Of a stretch of 63,882 nucleotides of DNA, positions 14,241 to 34,845 are shown in pieces. The notes below the pieces were generated by a model. It did not search any database, was not told where the DNA came from, and saw nothing but the letters and a program-made list of their open reading frames with translations. Every line of letters begins with the position of its first letter. Positions within the stretch are counted from its first letter, which is position 1. The position numbers were made by a program, and so were the translations under genes. The DNA is from Microbacterium sp. Marseille-Q6648. Lineage in GTDB: Bacteria > Actinomycetota > Actinomycetes > Actinomycetales > Microbacteriaceae. The stretch covers positions 1 to 63,882 of the forward strand of contig NZ_CALPBZ010000007.1 of assembly GCF_943181415.1 (NCBI RefSeq), in the 5' to 3' direction.

Positions 14241-16130
14241 GTGAGCGCATACGTTTCGGCGTTCGAGCTGTTCTCCATCGGAGTAGGACCCTCGAGCTCC
14301 CACACCGTCGGCCCGATGCGGGCGGCACGGGACTTCGCCGTGCGCCTGCGCGAAGGCGGTCTGCTGTCCCGCGTGGCGCGGGTGGAGTGCACGCTGTTCG
14401 GTTCGCTCGGTGCGACCGGTCTCGGCCACGGCACCCCCGATGCCGTCGTGGCGGGTCTGCAAGGGCTCGAGCCCGAGACCGTGGACCCCGCCGCGGTGCG
14501 CGCGGCGTGGAGCGACTGGCCCGCGGGGGCCGACCTGATGCTCGCGGGGGAGCAGGCCGTGCCGTTCGCGAAGGACGACATCGCCTTCGCGCCGCGTACC
14601 CGGCTGCCTGGGCACCCGAATGCCCTGACCCTGATCGCCCGCGATGCGGACGGCGTCGTGGTCGCGGAAGAGACCTACTACTCGGTGGGCGGCGGGTTCA
14701 TCCGGCGCGACGGCGCGGCGGCGCAGGTAGCCTCGCATCGCTTCCCGCTGACGTTCGCCTCGGCCGAGGAGCTCCTCGCCGAGTGCGACGAGCGCGGCAT
14801 CACCTTCGCGGAGGCTGCGCGGCTCAACGAGGAGGCGCTGCGGACCGAGGCCGAGGTCGCCTCGGGGCTCGACGCGATCTGGGACGCCATGGCCGCGTGC
14901 GTGAACGCGGGGCTTCGCACCGGCGGCGAGCTGCCCGGGATGCTGCGGGTGAAGCGCCGGGCGTCGGCGATACGCGAGCAGCTCGAAGCCGCCGAGGCGT
15001 CGGGGCACCGCGAGCTTCCCGGCGAGTGGCTCGGCGCGTTCGCCCTCGCGGTCAATGAGGAGAACGCCGCCGGTGGACGGGTCGTCACCGCCCCCACCAA
15101 CGGCGCCGCGGGGATCGTGCCGGCCGTGGCGATGTACTGGTGGCGCTTCCTGGCCGACTCCGGCCTGGGCGCCGGCAACGCCGTCACCCCCTACGGCGAG
15201 CTCGTCGGCAGTGCGCTGCTCGGCTTCGGCGGCGCGGGTCGGTCGCCCGGCGGGCCGGCGGGCGGGCCGGGAGGCGCGCCCGGGTCGCTGGGTGAGCCTG
15301 GTCCTGCGCCCGGGTCGTTGGGTGAGCCGGGTTCTGCGCCCGGGTCGCTGGGCGAGCCCGGTTCTGCGCCCGGGTCGTTGGGCGAGCCCGGTTCTGCGCC
15401 CGGGTCGCTGGGCGAGCCCGGTTCTGCGCCCGGGTCGCTGGGCGAGCCCGGTTCTGCGCCCGGGTCGCTGGGGGAGCCTGGTTCTTCCCCCCGGTCGCTG
15501 AGCGAGCGCGGTTCTGCACCCGGGTCGTTGGGCGAGCGCGGTTCTTCCCCCCGGTCGCTGAGCGAGCGCGGTTCTTCCCCCCGGTCGTTGGGCGAGCGCG
15601 GTTCTTCCCCCCCGTCGCTGAGCGAGCCCGGAGGGCGAGACGAAGCGCCCGAGTCGATCTCCGACGAAGCGGTCGCCGAGGCGAACCGCCGTCGCGGCAT
15701 CCGTCGTTTTCTGCTCACCGCGACCGCGCTGGGTTCGCTGTTCAAAGCGAATGCGTCGATCTCGGGAGCCGAGGGCGGCTGCCAGGCCGAGGTCGGATCC
15801 GCGTGCGCGATGGCCGCGGGCGGGCTGACGGCGGTGATGGGCGGGACCAACCGGCAGATCGAGAACGCCGCCGAGATCGCGATGGAGCACCACCTGGGCC
15901 TGACGTGCGATCCCGTGGGCGGGCTCGTGCAGATCCCGTGCATCGAGCGCAACGCGATCGCCGCCTCGACCGCCGTCACCGCGGCCCGGCTGGCTCTGCG
16001 CGGCGACGGCTCGCACTACGTCTCGCTCGACGCCGTGGTCGAGACGATGCGCCAGACCGGGATCGACATGTCGACCAAGTACAAGGAGACCAGCGAGGGC
16101 GGCCTCGCGGTGAACGTCATCGAGTGCTGA
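14241..16130 (+). CDS. sdaA: L-serine ammonia-lyase with a long repeat insertion, 629 aa
   Basis: Iron-sulfur L-serine dehydratase (serine to pyruvate and ammonia) of the single-chain type, normally about 460 residues. The beta domain (FSIGVGPSSSHTVGP) leads; the alpha domain holds VVTAPTNGAAGIVPAV and ISGAEGGCQAEVGSAC. The presumed [4Fe-4S] ligands are Cys514, Cys556 and Cys567. Their 42/11 spacing matches, as I recall, the Legionella enzyme, so the core is intact. Between residues about 330 and 480 lies an extra segment built from twelve decapeptides (residues 344-463). The GTG start is 6 nt after TAGCCT, indicating a leaderless mRNA. Confidence 0.9.
   Translation: MSAYVSAFELFSIGVGPSSSHTVGPMRAARDFAVRLREGGLLSRVARVECTLFGSLGATGLGHGTPDAVVAGLQGLEPETVDPAAVRAAWSDWPAGADLMLAGEQAVPFAKDDIAFAPRTRLPGHPNALTLIARDADGVVVAEETYYSVGGGFIRRDGAAAQVASHRFPLTFASAEELLAECDERGITFAEAARLNEEALRTEAEVASGLDAIWDAMAACVNAGLRTGGELPGMLRVKRRASAIREQLEAAEASGHRELPGEWLGAFALAVNEENAAGGRVVTAPTNGAAGIVPAVAMYWWRFLADSGLGAGNAVTPYGELVGSALLGFGGAGRSPGGPAGGPGGAPGSLGEPGPAPGSLGEPGSAPGSLGEPGSAPGSLGEPGSAPGSLGEPGSAPGSLGEPGSAPGSLGEPGSSPRSLSERGSAPGSLGERGSSPRSLSERGSSPRSLGERGSSPPSLSEPGGRDEAPESISDEAVAEANRRRGIRRFLLTATALGSLFKANASISGAEGGCQAEVGSACAMAAGGLTAVMGGTNRQIENAAEIAMEHHLGLTCDPVGGLVQIPCIERNAIAASTAVTAARLALRGDGSHYVSLDAVVETMRQTGIDMSTKYKETSEGGLAVNVIEC
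15271..15630 (+). repeat. twelve 30-bp tandem repeats inside sdaA
   Basis: Twelve units with an exact 30-bp period encode G-(S/P)-(A/S)-P-(G/R)-S-L-(G/S)-E-(P/R). The central units (15331-15450) are nearly identical, differing only at a ctg/ttg position, while the outer ones diverge, as expected of slippage or unequal exchange. The last five units alternate GGTCGCTGAGCGAGCGCG variants. The array runs into 15631-15653, which reads GAGGGCGAGACGAAGCGCCC and resembles the intergenic element at 24260-24292. Confidence 0.95.
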
Positions 16131-17442: not shown

Positions 17443-17493
17443 CGTCCCCGGCGGGCGCGGGCGGGTCTCGCGAAACCGGCGCAGGGGGAGAAA

Positions 17494-17563
17494 CCCGTTC
17501 GGAAGCGCCCCCGTGGAGAGCGCGGCGCACCCGTTCGGAAGCGCCCCTGTGGAGAGCGCGGCG
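17494..17563. repeat. two 36-bp direct repeats upstream of the DUF559 gene
   Basis: CCCGTTCGGAAGCGCCCC begins both copies (17494 and 17530), which differ by one base over 34 bp. They lie just upstream of the DUF559 start, in the region expected to hold its promoter. The surrounding 17564-17714 is very GC-rich with no credible gene. Confidence 0.75.
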
Positions 17564-17714: not shown

Positions 17715-18026
17715 CCATGTGGCGGAATGTGCGGTTTCCGTGCGCCGAGGGCGCAGACGCCGCCAAGTCGACGCCCCTGGGTGCGACGTGCGCACGCGCC
17801 CGCTCGCGCTGGCGCTGGGTGCGGCGTGCGCACGCGCCCCGCCCCTATGTGGCGACATGTGCGGTTAAGTGCGGCCGAAGGCGCAGACAGCGCCAGGTCG
17901 ACGGCGCAGGGTGCGACGTGCGCACGCGCCCCGCCCGCATGTGGCGACATGCGCGGTTTCGGGCGGCCCAGAGCGCGGATAGCGCCAGGTCGACGGGACA
18001 AGGTGCGGCGTGCGCACGCGCCCCCG
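17715..18026. repeat. three ~90-bp tandem repeats before the Hsp20 operators
   Basis: Copies start near 17715, 17845 and 17938. Each runs from (C)ATGTGGCG(A)CATG through GTGCGGTT-like, CAGCGCCAGGTCGACG-like and GGTGCGACGTGCGCACGCGCCC segments. An extra partial copy of the last segment (about 17801-17840) separates copies 1 and 2. Each copy contains the inverted repeat CATGTggcgACATG and the palindrome GTGCGCAC. No open frame here has protein character. Confidence 0.8.
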
Positions 18027-18618: not shown

Positions 18619-18652
18619 GGATGCCGCGCCCCCACGCCGGGGCGCGGCATCC
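18619..18652 (+). terminator. terminator hairpin after hsp20
   Basis: GGATGCCGCGCCCC (18619-18632) pairs perfectly over 14 bp with GGGGCGCGGCATCC (18639-18652) around a CACGCC loop. It starts 17 bp after the hsp20 stop. Its right arm is repeated downstream (see 18633-18749). Confidence 0.85.
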
Positions 18653-18749
18653 GTGCGTCTGTGGAACCCCGCACGCCGGGGCGCGGCATCCGTGCGTGTG
18701 TGAAACCTCGCACGCCGGGGCGCGGCATCCGTGCGTGTGTGAAACCCCG
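18633..18749. repeat. three 39-bp tandem repeats carrying the terminator's right arm
   Basis: Units 18633-18671, 18672-18710 and 18711-18749 each begin CACGCCGGGGCGCGGCATCC and continue GTGCGTSTGTGRAACC. A fourth, decayed unit follows to about 18788. The left arm of the hairpin exists once, but three identical right arms are present, so alternative pairings are possible. Confidence 0.9.
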
Positions 18750-18788
18750 CAGCCCGGCCGCGCGGCAACCGTGCGTCCACGGCGGAGC

Positions 18789-24193: not shown

Positions 24194-24292
24194 GCGCCCT
24201 TCGTCTCGTCGCTGCGCTCCTCGCTCAGGGTCCGAGCCGGTGCGCGTGCGCGTTCCCGGCCGCTGAGCGAGCGCAGCGAGACGAAGCGCCCT
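24194..24292. repeat. inverted pair of an interspersed palindromic repeat
   Basis: The left arm (24194-24230) reads GCGCCCTTCGTCTCG, then TCGCTGCGCTCCTCGCTCA. The right arm (24260-24292) is its near-reverse-complement, GCTGAGCGAGCGCAGCGAGA plus CGAAGCGCCC. The same sequence occurs at 33585-33618 and, degenerate, in sdaA near 15614-15650. The pair can fold into one large stem, so it could also act as a terminator between the protease operon and the ATPase gene. Confidence 0.85.
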
Positions 24293-31876: not shown

Positions 31877-33583
31877 TCAAGCCAACTCGGGCGTCCGCGG
31901 TGGAGACGTGCGTCGCGGGCGCAGGGATTCGAAGCCCGTCGCCCAGCGCAGCAGGTCGCGATCGGAATACGCCGCGCCCGCGAACGTCAGCCCCACCGGC
32001 ATGCCGATGTCGTCCATCGTGCCCATCGGCACCGTGACCGTCGGGATCCCCATGTGCCGGATCGCCAGGTTGCCGTTCGCAACCCAGACGCCGTTGCGCC
32101 ATGCGAGGTCGGCCGACCGGGGATTCACATCGGCGTCGGCCGGGCCCACGTCGGCCATGGCGGGGAAGACGACGGCATCGAGGCCGAGCGCCAGCATCCA
32201 CTCTTCGAGGTCGAGCCGCCTCGTGGCCTCGAGACCGCGCAGGCCCTCGGCGAGCTCGGGGATCTCGGCGAGCGAGCCGTACGGATGCTGCTGCACGTGC
32301 GCGGGGTACGCGGCGATGTCGTCGTCGAAGCCGGTGTAGCGGTCGGGCAGCGCCCCGGGTGGCGCCGGGAAGATCCGCTCGCCGTCCACCTGCTCGAGGC
32401 GGTTCAACGCGGGGTCGCCGTTGGCCCGCAGGAAGTCGTCCCATGCCCACGCGGACAGGTCCTCGATCTCGTACCGAAGGAACTCGGGGCGAACCAGCCC
32501 GCGCGTCGCGAGCGTCGGGGCTCCCGCGCGGTCGCCTTCGTAGTTGGACACCACGGGGAAGTCGACCTCGATCACCTCCGCGCCGGCCGCTTCGAGGTCG
32601 CGGCGCGCGGCCTCCCACAACGCCAGGACGGCGGGGCGGGGCACGATGCGCTCGCCCAGCGGACCCCCCATCCCGGTGCCGGTGCCCGCGTCGGGGTCGC
32701 CGCCGAGGAACATGCGGGGTACCCCGAATCTCCTTCCCGCCAGCGACGCGGATGCCGCGGCGCCGAGTTCGGCGTAGGCCGCCCCCCGCAGGGTGGACGC
32801 CGCCGGCAGCGGCAGCCACGGCTGTGCCCGCCAGAAGTCGCCGCGGGTCTCGGGGTCGTCCGCCACGAGCACGTCGAGGATCTCGAGCATGTCGGCCATC
32901 GTGCGGGTGTGGGGGACGACGACGTCCATGGTGGGCACGAGGGGCCAGTTGCCGCGGACCGAGATCACACCGCGCGAGGGCGTGTAGGCGCAGAGCGCGT
33001 TGCACGAGGCCGGGGCGCGCCCGCTCGACCACGTCTCTTCGCCGAGACCGAAGGCGGCGAACGATGCGGCTGTCGCGGTACCCGACCCGTTGGACGATCC
33101 CGAGGCGAAGGCGGACGTGAGGTAGTCGGCGTTGTACGGGCTCTCGGCGCGTCCGTAGAGTCCCCGCTGCATGCCGCCGTTGGCCATCGGCGGCATGTTG
33201 GTGAGTCCGAGCAGGATGCAGCCGGCCGCCCGCAGCCGCTCGATCGAGAACGCGTCACGCTGCGCGACCAGGTCGGCGAACGCGGGGGAGCCCGCCGCGA
33301 CCGTGAGACCGCGGACCATGAAGCTGTCCTTGGCGGTGTACGGGATGCCGTCCAGGGGTCCGAGTGCGAGGCCGGCGGCCCGTCGCGCGTCCGAGGCCGC
33401 CGCCTCGGAACGGGCGTCGGGGTTGCGGACGACCACCGAGTTCAACGCGGTCGGGCTGCCCGGCTCGTCGTAGGCGGCCAGACGCGCGAGGTAGGAGTCG
33501 ACCAGTTCGACCGCGGTGGTGCGGCCGCTCTCGAGCGCGGCGCGCAGGTCGGCGATGGACGCCTCGACGACGCGGATGGTCAT
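31877..33583 (-). CDS. amidase (amidase-signature family), 568 aa
   Basis: Amidase-signature enzyme with the Ser-cisSer-Lys triad. The catalytic Lys lies in GIPYTAKDSF, and the Ser pair in SAFASGSSNGSGTATAASFA, followed by GEETWSSGRAPAS. Substrate unknown. The ATG overlaps the stop of the agmatine deiminase gene by 4 bp, so the two are translationally coupled. The product of that enzyme, N-carbamoylputrescine, is one plausible substrate class, but the usual enzyme for that step is a nitrilase-type amidase, so this is speculative. Confidence 0.85.
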   Translation of the reverse strand: MTIRVVEASIADLRAALESGRTTAVELVDSYLARLAAYDEPGSPTALNSVVVRNPDARSEAAASDARRAAGLALGPLDGIPYTAKDSFMVRGLTVAAGSPAFADLVAQRDAFSIERLRAAGCILLGLTNMPPMANGGMQRGLYGRAESPYNADYLTSAFASGSSNGSGTATAASFAAFGLGEETWSSGRAPASCNALCAYTPSRGVISVRGNWPLVPTMDVVVPHTRTMADMLEILDVLVADDPETRGDFWRAQPWLPLPAASTLRGAAYAELGAAASASLAGRRFGVPRMFLGGDPDAGTGTGMGGPLGERIVPRPAVLALWEAARRDLEAAGAEVIEVDFPVVSNYEGDRAGAPTLATRGLVRPEFLRYEIEDLSAWAWDDFLRANGDPALNRLEQVDGERIFPAPPGALPDRYTGFDDDIAAYPAHVQQHPYGSLAEIPELAEGLRGLEATRRLDLEEWMLALGLDAVVFPAMADVGPADADVNPRSADLAWRNGVWVANGNLAIRHMGIPTVTVPMGTMDDIGMPVGLTFAGAAYSDRDLLRWATGFESLRPRRTSPPRTPELA

Positions 33584-34713
33584 CGCGCTTCGTCTCGCTG
33601 CGCTCGCTCAGCGACCGGGGGGATGCCGGCTTGCTCGGCGACCGGGGGGATGCCGGCTTGCTCGGCGACCGGGGGGATGCCGGCTCGCTCGGCGGAGGTG
33701 CGGGGCTGCTGCTGGGTGATGCAGTGGATGCCCCCGCCGCGCGCGAGGATCGGGCGGGCGTCGATCGTCACGACGTCCCGGCCGTACGCCTCGCGCAGGA
33801 TGTCCGCCGCCCGTGCGTCCGCTGCGGGCTCGCCGTAGCCGCACGCGATGACCCCGCCGTTGACGACCACGTGGTTGACGTAGCTGTAGTCGACGAAGCC
33901 GTCCTCGTCGCGCAGCGTCTCGGGGGCGGGCAGTTCGATCACCTCGAGGCTGCGGCCCGCGGCATCCGTCGCCTCCTGCAGCACGGCCCGCAGTTCGCGA
34001 GAGACCGCGTAGTCGGGGTGGGCCGGGTCGTCCTGCCAGTGGAGGAGGACCGTGCCGGGCCGCGCGAACGTCGCGACCATGTCGACGTGGCCGCGCGTGC
34101 CCCAGCCGGAGTAGTCGCGCGTGAGGCCCCGCGGCAGCCAGATCGGGTGGGTGGCGCCGAGCGTGCGGGCCAGTTCCCCCTCGACGCGCTCCTTCGTCGC
34201 ATACGGGTTGCGGCGCGGGTCGAGCTGGACGGTCTCGGTGACCAGCACGGTGCCTTCTCCGTCGACGTGGATGCCGCCGCCCTCGTTGACGAGCATCGAC
34301 GGCAGGTGGACGGCGCCGGCCCGGGCGGCGACGAAGCGGGCGACACGGTCGTCGCGCTCCCACGTGGCCCAGGCATTGGCGCCCCACCCGTTGAAGATCC
34401 AGTCCACAGCCCCGAGCCGCCCCGACTCGTCCACGACGAAGGTCGGCCCGATGTCGCGCATCCAGAAGTCGTCGAGCGGCGCCTCGACGATCTCGACCTC
34501 GCCCGACAGCCGCCGCCGCGCGTCGCCGACGGCGGACGGGTCGACCACCATCGTGACCGGCTCGAACGACACGGCGGCGTTGGCCACGGCGGCCCACGTG
34601 TCGCGCGCCTCGTCGGCCGACGAGGCGTCGTCGCCGAGAGTGTTGCCGACCCGGGGGAAGGCCATCCACAGTCGCTCGTGCGGAGCCCACTCGGCCGGCA
34701 TCGTCCAGGTCAT
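33580..34713 (-). CDS. aguA: agmatine deiminase family protein with a repeat extension, 377 aa
   Basis: Pentein-fold agmatine deiminase (agmatine to N-carbamoylputrescine). The motifs are DFWMRDIGPTF, VNEGGGIHVDGEGT, RGHVDMVATF and the catalytic cysteine in GGGIHCITQQQP. Normally the protein ends close to this cysteine. Here about 40 residues follow, containing three copies of AGIPPVAEQ/R and ending QRDEAR. They are encoded by 27-bp repeats and an interspersed element. Start at ATG 34713, behind AAGGAG. Confidence 0.88.
   Translation of the reverse strand: MTWTMPAEWAPHERLWMAFPRVGNTLGDDASSADEARDTWAAVANAAVSFEPVTMVVDPSAVGDARRRLSGEVEIVEAPLDDFWMRDIGPTFVVDESGRLGAVDWIFNGWGANAWATWERDDRVARFVAARAGAVHLPSMLVNEGGGIHVDGEGTVLVTETVQLDPRRNPYATKERVEGELARTLGATHPIWLPRGLTRDYSGWGTRGHVDMVATFARPGTVLLHWQDDPAHPDYAVSRELRAVLQEATDAAGRSLEVIELPAPETLRDEDGFVDYSYVNHVVVNGGVIACGYGEPAADARAADILREAYGRDVVTIDARPILARGGGIHCITQQQPRTSAERAGIPPVAEQAGIPPVAEQAGIPPVAERAQRDEAR
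33585..33618. repeat. interspersed palindromic element at the 3' end of the deiminase gene
   Basis: GCGCTTCGTCTCGCTGCGCT, then CGCTCAGCGACCGG, is the same element as the arms at 24194-24292. Here it is coding on the minus strand as the last residues of the agmatine deiminase, without breaking the 4-bp overlap with the amidase start. Confidence 0.85.
33611..33691. repeat. three 27-bp coding tandem repeats
   Basis: Units of 27 bp, each GCGACCGGGGGGATGCCGGC plus YTGCTCG or a one-base variant, start at 33611, 33638 and 33665. Read on the minus strand they encode AGIPPVAEQ repeats. The first unit shares its GCGACCGG with the interspersed element. Confidence 0.95.
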
Positions 34714-34845
34714 CCTCGCTCCTTCGTCGGGTGTTCTCATCCTGTCCGATCCGCCTCGCTAACGAAACGGCGGCCTCGGCGCAACCCCCTACGAAACCGC
34801 TCGGGACCGGACGTAGCGTCTGAACACCGGCGAAAGGAGCGCACC

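Follow-up and report, generated by a model that had tools for sequence, protein, structure and literature searches.

A 30-bp in-frame array in the sdaA gene of a Microbacterium, probably grown from one arm of a dispersed palindrome

Rickettsia palindromic elements (RPE) are reportedly the subject of work by Ogata et al. in 2000. Mycobacterial interspersed repetitive units (MIRU) are actinobacterial tandem repeats of dispersed origin, which touch gene ends, have longer units and are mainly intergenic. In the available text of PMC2229807, RPE are described as dispersed elements of 105-146 bp lying in frame in conserved genes, and activity is reported for a guanylate kinase that carries an RPE. 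The available text of Di Nocera et al. (2013, PMC3733652) describes intragenic GTAG- and CGTC-tagged REPs as short dispersed palindromes, often clustered and lying in frame in genes including DnaE2, with the recB genes of two Xanthomonas struck at nearly the same position and some REP clusters encoding 43-82 aa. In the same text head-to-tail dimers are given as negligible for the CGTC elements, Actinobacteria do not occur by that word, and M. tuberculosis is named with untagged REP-like repeats.

Here we describe an array of 30-bp units within the L-serine ammonia-lyase gene sdaA of a Microbacterium and a palindrome of its genome, REP1. Like the RPE of that account, REP1 is palindromic, dispersed and in frame in conserved protein genes, but it is about 36 bp long instead of 105-146 bp, appears to grow by tandem multiplication of one arm and has Microbacterium as its host instead of Rickettsia. 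The REPs as presented by Di Nocera et al. are likewise short, dispersed, in-frame palindromes, DnaE2 included, and REP1 carries a CGTC tag on its minus strand; unlike in the CGTC elements described there, one arm is here tandemly multiplied and encodes about 120 aa. Neither a report on Microbacterium REPs nor one on repeats in serine dehydratase was found in searches of an open-licence library. Intragenic REPs were already known from Rickettsia and Proteobacteria; half-palindromes amplified in frame at recurring positions, here in a genus of Actinobacteria, add a new variant to them.

The sdaA gene, its array and the surrounding loop

The window, i.e. the whole stretch of DNA that was analysed, is an entire contig of 63,882 bases from a genome of 3.49 Mb in 8 contigs. 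The following features were assigned to the sdaA locus:

14241..16130, plus strand: sdaA, single-chain [4Fe-4S] L-serine ammonia-lyase, 629 aa (TIGR00720, Pfam, invariant residues)
15276..15635, plus strand: 12 in-frame 30-bp units, each with one REP1 5' arm GGTCGCTGAGCGAGC (TRF, reading frame, arm count)
15635..15648, plus strand: single REP1 3' arm GCGAGACGAAGCGC, exact at 14/14 positions, closing the array (match to dispersed copies)

The sdaA product scored 580.9 bits against the TIGR00720 model for single-chain L-serine ammonia-lyase, above its curated cut-off of 345.1, and Pfam returned SDH_beta together with an SDH_alpha domain split over two stretches. In an alignment of 24 sequences C514, C556 and C567 (spacing 42 and 11) and H63 were invariant, thus bearing out the family motifs and cysteine spacing pointed out in an earlier sequence-only reading of this DNA; the final residue of the protein is also a cysteine, C629. 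The roles of the cluster cysteines, the C-terminal cysteine and the catalytic histidine were taken from the available text of PMC12647591. The Legionella pneumophila type 2 L-serine dehydratase (PDB 4rqo) could be aligned with the sdaA product on both sides of the array and, as far as that text describes it, shares the three cluster cysteines, the C-terminal cysteine (Cys458, 629 here) and the catalytic histidine (His61, 63 here), whereas it has 9 residues (chain 323-331) in place of the 184 found in the window protein (301-484).

Outside the loop, comparison with the relative L318 gave a dN/dS of 0.146, comparisons with six others gave 0.133-0.175 and that with the shorter sequence L319 gave 0.241; between pairs of relatives the ratio ranged from 0.126 to 0.262. 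These values point to purifying selection on sdaA outside the loop, and a ratio of about 0.14 fits an active gene. A search of the own genome returned no second sdaA, and SdaA with the array is presumably still an active enzyme.

TRF returned a single array at 15276-15631 with a period of 30, 11.9 copies, 89% matches, 0% indels and a score of 488, the highest among the 23 TRF rows of the window. The unit starts fall in the sdaA frame (15276, 15306 ... 15606), and the array is translated into 12 ten-residue units, from APGSLGEPGP and APGSLGEPGS to SPRSLSERGS and SPPSLSEPGG, using A, P, G, S, L, E and R only. Units 3, 5 and 6 are identical, as are units 8 and 10; divergence is greatest in the last unit. 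The 15-base 5' arm was recognised in all 12 units with 0-3 mismatches, being exact in units 8 and 10 and carrying 1-3 mismatches in the others. The 12 in-frame repeats, the near identity of the central units and a unit length divisible by three, all noted from the sequence alone, were therefore recovered by TRF and the reading frame. The start then proposed, 15271, lies 5 bp too early, and the 3' arm of the founding element reaches 15648. The suggestion of a phase-like serine deaminase does not fit the array, since a 30-bp in-frame unit cannot turn the gene off. Three further tandem arrays occur around or between genes near sdaA, at 17811-18024 (92 bp x 2.3), 18629-18777 (39 bp x 3.8) and 17493-17563 (36 bp x 2.0).

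A DNA search of 277 congeners, in which sdaA was matched in 240, returned no match crossing the array among the matches listed. The contig L122 from another MAG was rejected as a comparator for the array because it begins after the loop; its protein is 100% identical over residues 499-629, and its DNA is identical at 347 of 393 bases.

In the window protein 210 aa separate the TNGAAGxxPA block from the first cluster-cysteine block, compared with 35 aa in 39 of 96 loci and 73-104 aa in those Microbacterium that carry a genus insert; 13 loci with absent flanking patterns were left out. The extra length appears to consist of two layers, an old Microbacterium insert of about 44 aa (gap of 79 versus 35) and then the array. 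The excess of about 150 residues claimed earlier is real, and its figure lies between about 130 aa over congeners and 175 aa over the common form. A survey of the loop parsed 188 sequences, 136 of them with the insert, and gave 125 distinct loops, whose hypervariable part measured 154 aa in the window protein and 17-48 aa in the other 124; eleven further distinct loops measured 23-47 aa, bringing the total to 136. The loop length thus differs among species (17-48 aa in the 135 others, one genome per species), with none near 154 aa. Three short loops with altered flanking motifs (L215, L254, L322) were left out.

The palindrome REP1 and arrays with one arm multiplied

When the array was compared with its own genome, 59 places were matched at E <= 10. 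Among the non-self matches the lowest E values were 1.5e-15, 3.2e-11 and 3.7e-7, and the top nine were all located at the 3' end of the query, within positions 283-408. The dispersed element has a consensus of about CCGGTCGYTGAGCGAGCGCAGCGAGACGAARCGCC, some 36 bp long. A strict REP1 pattern found 23 copies in the own genome (15 forward, 8 reverse) and none with the reversed-pattern control, while a half-site pattern allowing 3 mismatches found 125 against 53 in the control, which is weak evidence. The strict pattern missed the 3' element of the sdaA array, which is no longer an intact REP1. Facing positions of the two arms co-varied, with C-G in 16 and T-A in 6 copies of the own genome and T-A in 30 and C-G in 4 of the relatives' loci, none of these being mixed; a mixed pair was seen in one copy of the genome listing and in 3 with a looser pattern. 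Arm changes that keep the pairing could also come from two inherited subfamilies.

By inspection, the minus strand of REP1 reads TTCGTC followed by TCGCTG(CGCTCGCT)CAGCGA, so that a CGTC tag adjoins the palindrome. On the plus strand the C form of REP1 folds into a 6-bp stem with an 8-base loop and a C-G second pair, whereas the CGTC families, according to the available text of PMC3733652, have a stem of 8-9 bp with A-T pairs in first and second position and a loop of 4-5. REP1 would accordingly work like an intragenic REP, and it was kept out of the CGTC families because the published stem and loop lengths are not matched. Unlike the RAYT-mobilised GTAG REPs, it is not accompanied by a recognised Y1 tyrosine transposase (PF01797), which was found in none of 23 genomes of the genus, the own one included, and in 5 of 14 named genomes used as a positive control.

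Reading of the consensus showed 5 of the 6 frames of REP1 to be open. As judged from open frames and GC3 only, 3 of the 23 strict copies lie inside two genes, 3 in the C-terminal tails of two genes, 1 at an N-terminus, 1 possibly in a gene (L190, C2:461531) and 15 in intergenic or unassigned positions. L190 has an open frame and a sub-threshold Pfam hit and was not counted as coding. REP1 copies of either orientation cluster at C5:76485-77407 of the same genome (G000, L151), where they show a higher-order period of 117 bp and are probably intergenic. Two further features of the window carry REP1:

24261..24288, plus strand: lone REP1 without a multiplied arm, intergenic, upstream of a HerA-like ATPase (Pfam DUF87/HerA; strict pattern)
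33580..34740, minus strand: agmatine-deiminase-type protein, 386 aa, Pfam PAD_porph, whose C-terminal tail is a 27-bp REP1 array

The product of the latter gene, which we take to be of the agmatine-deiminase type, belongs by its Pfam name to the Porphyromonas-type peptidyl-arginine deiminases. Its Pfam domain ends at residue 346, and the tail (about 33585-33694) combines four 5' arms with a single exact 3' arm. The stop codon overlaps the ATG of the next gene (31877-33583, minus strand) at window positions 33580-33583, the REP1 tail thus forming the junction of two genes. In the same genome, three 5' arms and one 3' arm were found at the N-terminus of a Gfo/Idh-type oxidoreductase (C2:465733), where the array is probably translated, because no ATG, GTG or TTG occurs from the upstream ATG to the Rossmann strand. 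The own dnaE2 holds two in-frame REP1 copies, the own ABC transporter one between its membrane and ATPase domains, and an ATP-grasp protein a REP1 pair in its tail.

A second family, REP2, has the consensus GGGTCCCTGAGCTTGTCGAAGGGCC and shares with REP1 the frame GGTC-N-YTGAGC ... CGAAR-N'-GCC, in which N-N' is G-C in REP1 and C-G in REP2. The two look related, as sister families, and the GGTC side seems to be the multiplied arm in both. The sdaA array is built of twelve 5' arms and one exact 3' arm, and the agmatine-deiminase-type tail (4 + 1) and the oxidoreductase N-terminus (3 + 1) have the same build. REP2 arrays from three other Microbacterium genomes have a lone CTTCGACA arm before their repeated GGCTCAGGGACC arms; they lie in dnaE2 of G019 (TRF 18 bp, 9.4 copies), in the G005 ABC transporter (18 bp, 2.7 copies) and in sdaA of G234 (36 bp, 2.4 copies, the single arm with one mismatch). 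In total, there are six coding arrays, three of REP1 and three of REP2, in which one arm is multiplied and its partner occurs once. Each of the six periods is divisible by three, which is to be expected of open coding arrays and was in part the way in which they were found. Upstream of dnaE2 in G019, REP2-like half-site arrays were also observed (L310, 1-157 and 180-317; 18 bp x 8.7 and 21 bp x 6.6).

The same protein sites in other species

REP consensus sequences were aligned to the 125 sdaA loops, giving scores of 31 for L079, 25 for L020 (REP2), 24 for L019, 20 for the window, 19 for L236 and 14 for L230 (antisense), the rest scoring 11 or less; in the second batch of loops L341 reached 16 with REP2. 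Seven of the 136 distinct loops were thus taken as REP-derived. L103, REP2-like by eye, scored 10, while L235, L164 and L002 scored 11, and none of these was counted. L079, L230 and L236 form one clade; REP1 in L230 (G122) has the orientation opposite to that in its sister species, which suggests a rearrangement or an inverted pair at the same sdaA site. On trees that exclude the loop columns, and into which L103 and L319 entered in part only, the REP label required 4 changes with 127 rows and 5 with 138 rows. In the 138-row tree all 5 changes were forced by supported branches (bootstrap 5-5), and some of them may be losses.

Of 23 dnaE2 linkers, 17 were parsed and 6 were unparseable. High scores were obtained for the own linker (29; 109 aa), G012 (27, REP1; 91 aa) and G019 (18, REP2; 121 aa), and the other 14 scored 10 or less with 55-97 aa. 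All 22 ABC-transporter linkers could be parsed, and here the own one (31; 50 aa) and that of G005 (20, REP2; 44 aa) stood out, the other 20 scoring 8 or less with 21-79 aa. Several relatives' dnaE2 and ABC sequences match in one piece, and linker lengths vary widely. A REP origin would not be told from linker length alone, since some linkers are long without a REP signal; G010 has low-complexity linkers with no REP1 or REP2 signal in both the ABC transporter (79 aa, L315) and dnaE2 (97 aa, L365), perhaps owing to another element family or to plain slippage. A REP1 pair also lies within the open frame of a family-95 glycoside hydrolase in G028.

The sdaA loop, dnaE2 and the ABC linker appear from these alignments to have each been hit by REP DNA in more than one species, and at all three sites an intragenic palindromic element was found that differs in, or is absent from, relatives. 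REP1 occurred in 14 and REP2 in 17 of 58 genomes, all of them among the 35 of the genus and in 0 of the 23 others, with controls at 0. The REP1/REP2 counts were 23/0 in the own genome, 24/1 in G022, 2/24 in G030, 18/2 in G012, 0/60 in G019 and 27/63 in G005. As a raw count, the site held the more abundant family of its genome in 8 of the 8 site-by-genome cases in which both families were counted, namely sdaA in G000, G022 and G030, dnaE2 in G000, G012 and G019, and the ABC transporter in G000 and G005. Copy number varied strongly among the 35 genus genomes (G005, G008, G028 and others), from 0 to 183 for REP1 and from 0 to 63 for REP2.

Origin of the array and its meaning

We consider it very probable that the sdaA array is the multiplied half of the dispersed palindrome REP1, which landed in the variable loop. 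The match to a dispersed family, the build common to six arrays, the recurrence in separate lineages and the purifying selection outside the loop can be read from the sequences, and the insertion of REP1 into sdaA itself is what we infer from the loops of other species. A REP1 copy would have entered, in frame, an SdaA loop that already tolerated variation, an easy step since 5 of the 6 REP1 frames are open. The 5' arm and the 12-15 bp beside it would then have been multiplied 30 bp at a time, replication slippage or unequal recombination being the most likely mechanism, with a hairpin perhaps stalling replication at one arm, and the single 3' arm would have been left at the end. Selection on the reading frame would have retained steps of three, and the product may be a disordered, nearly neutral linker looped out of a presumably still active enzyme.

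Not all the evidence favours a REP1 origin. In its 5' units the array departs considerably from REP1, with up to 3 mismatches in 15, the half-site pattern exceeds its control by only 125 to 53, an intact REP1 is no longer present at the 3' end, neither an empty site within the species nor a second strain was encountered, and no Y1 transposase was seen in the 23 genus genomes. The long linkers of G010 indicate that slippage of local sequence alone can also lengthen linkers, as they carry no REP signal. Their existence, together with units that are in frame and partly identical and a loop length that differs among species, would suit an ordinary coding minisatellite, arisen from local GC-rich sequence and tuning the loop length between strains, whose likeness to REP is coincidental. 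Such an origin is improbable, as a 14-base 3' arm and 15-base 5' arms that match a dispersed element exactly are present in the array, the same build recurs in five other coding arrays, and the abundant family of the genome occupies the site in every one of the eight cases.

The array might also be kept for a function, either as a flexible spacer of SdaA or through the effect of an mRNA or DNA hairpin on expression. Its length and its open frame agree with this, as does a placement test in which 17 of 29 single-base differences between adjacent units were synonymous when taken singly, against 9.8 expected, the differences not being independent. However, when codon differences were counted as synonymous/other, the coding frame gave 12/12 and two other frames 14/10 and 15/9, i.e. 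more synonymous changes than the frame in use; moreover, 17-48 aa suffice in other species and the same units are present in unrelated proteins, so that we regard a retained function as unlikely. A false or miscounted array is a very remote prospect: a short-read count might be off by one or two units, because units 3, 5 and 6 are identical over 30 bp, but most units differ from each other, the frame stays open, and arrays of the same build exist elsewhere in the own genome and in three other assemblies.

With REP1 as the probable source of the sdaA array, palindromes that form protein, mainly described from Rickettsia and Proteobacteria, are met in a GC-rich actinobacterial genus. Since many Microbacterium species have been sequenced, one and the same protein site can be compared in its filled and its empty form over more than 100 species, and the one-arm build makes it testable how coding minisatellites start and how elements spread without a recognised transposase. 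It also cautions against taking a tandem repeat of a bacterial enzyme for an adaptive length switch, since such a repeat can instead be left over from a dispersed DNA element. It is quite possible, and we propose it tentatively, that a general and still active process operates in Microbacterium, by which palindromes enter tolerant loops, linkers and tails in frame and grow by one arm, with the single arm marking the founder and with SdaA, DnaE2 and the ABC linker recording the abundant family of each genome. If this is true, the history of each new protein segment would be readable from its sequence, since the single remaining arm marks the founding element.
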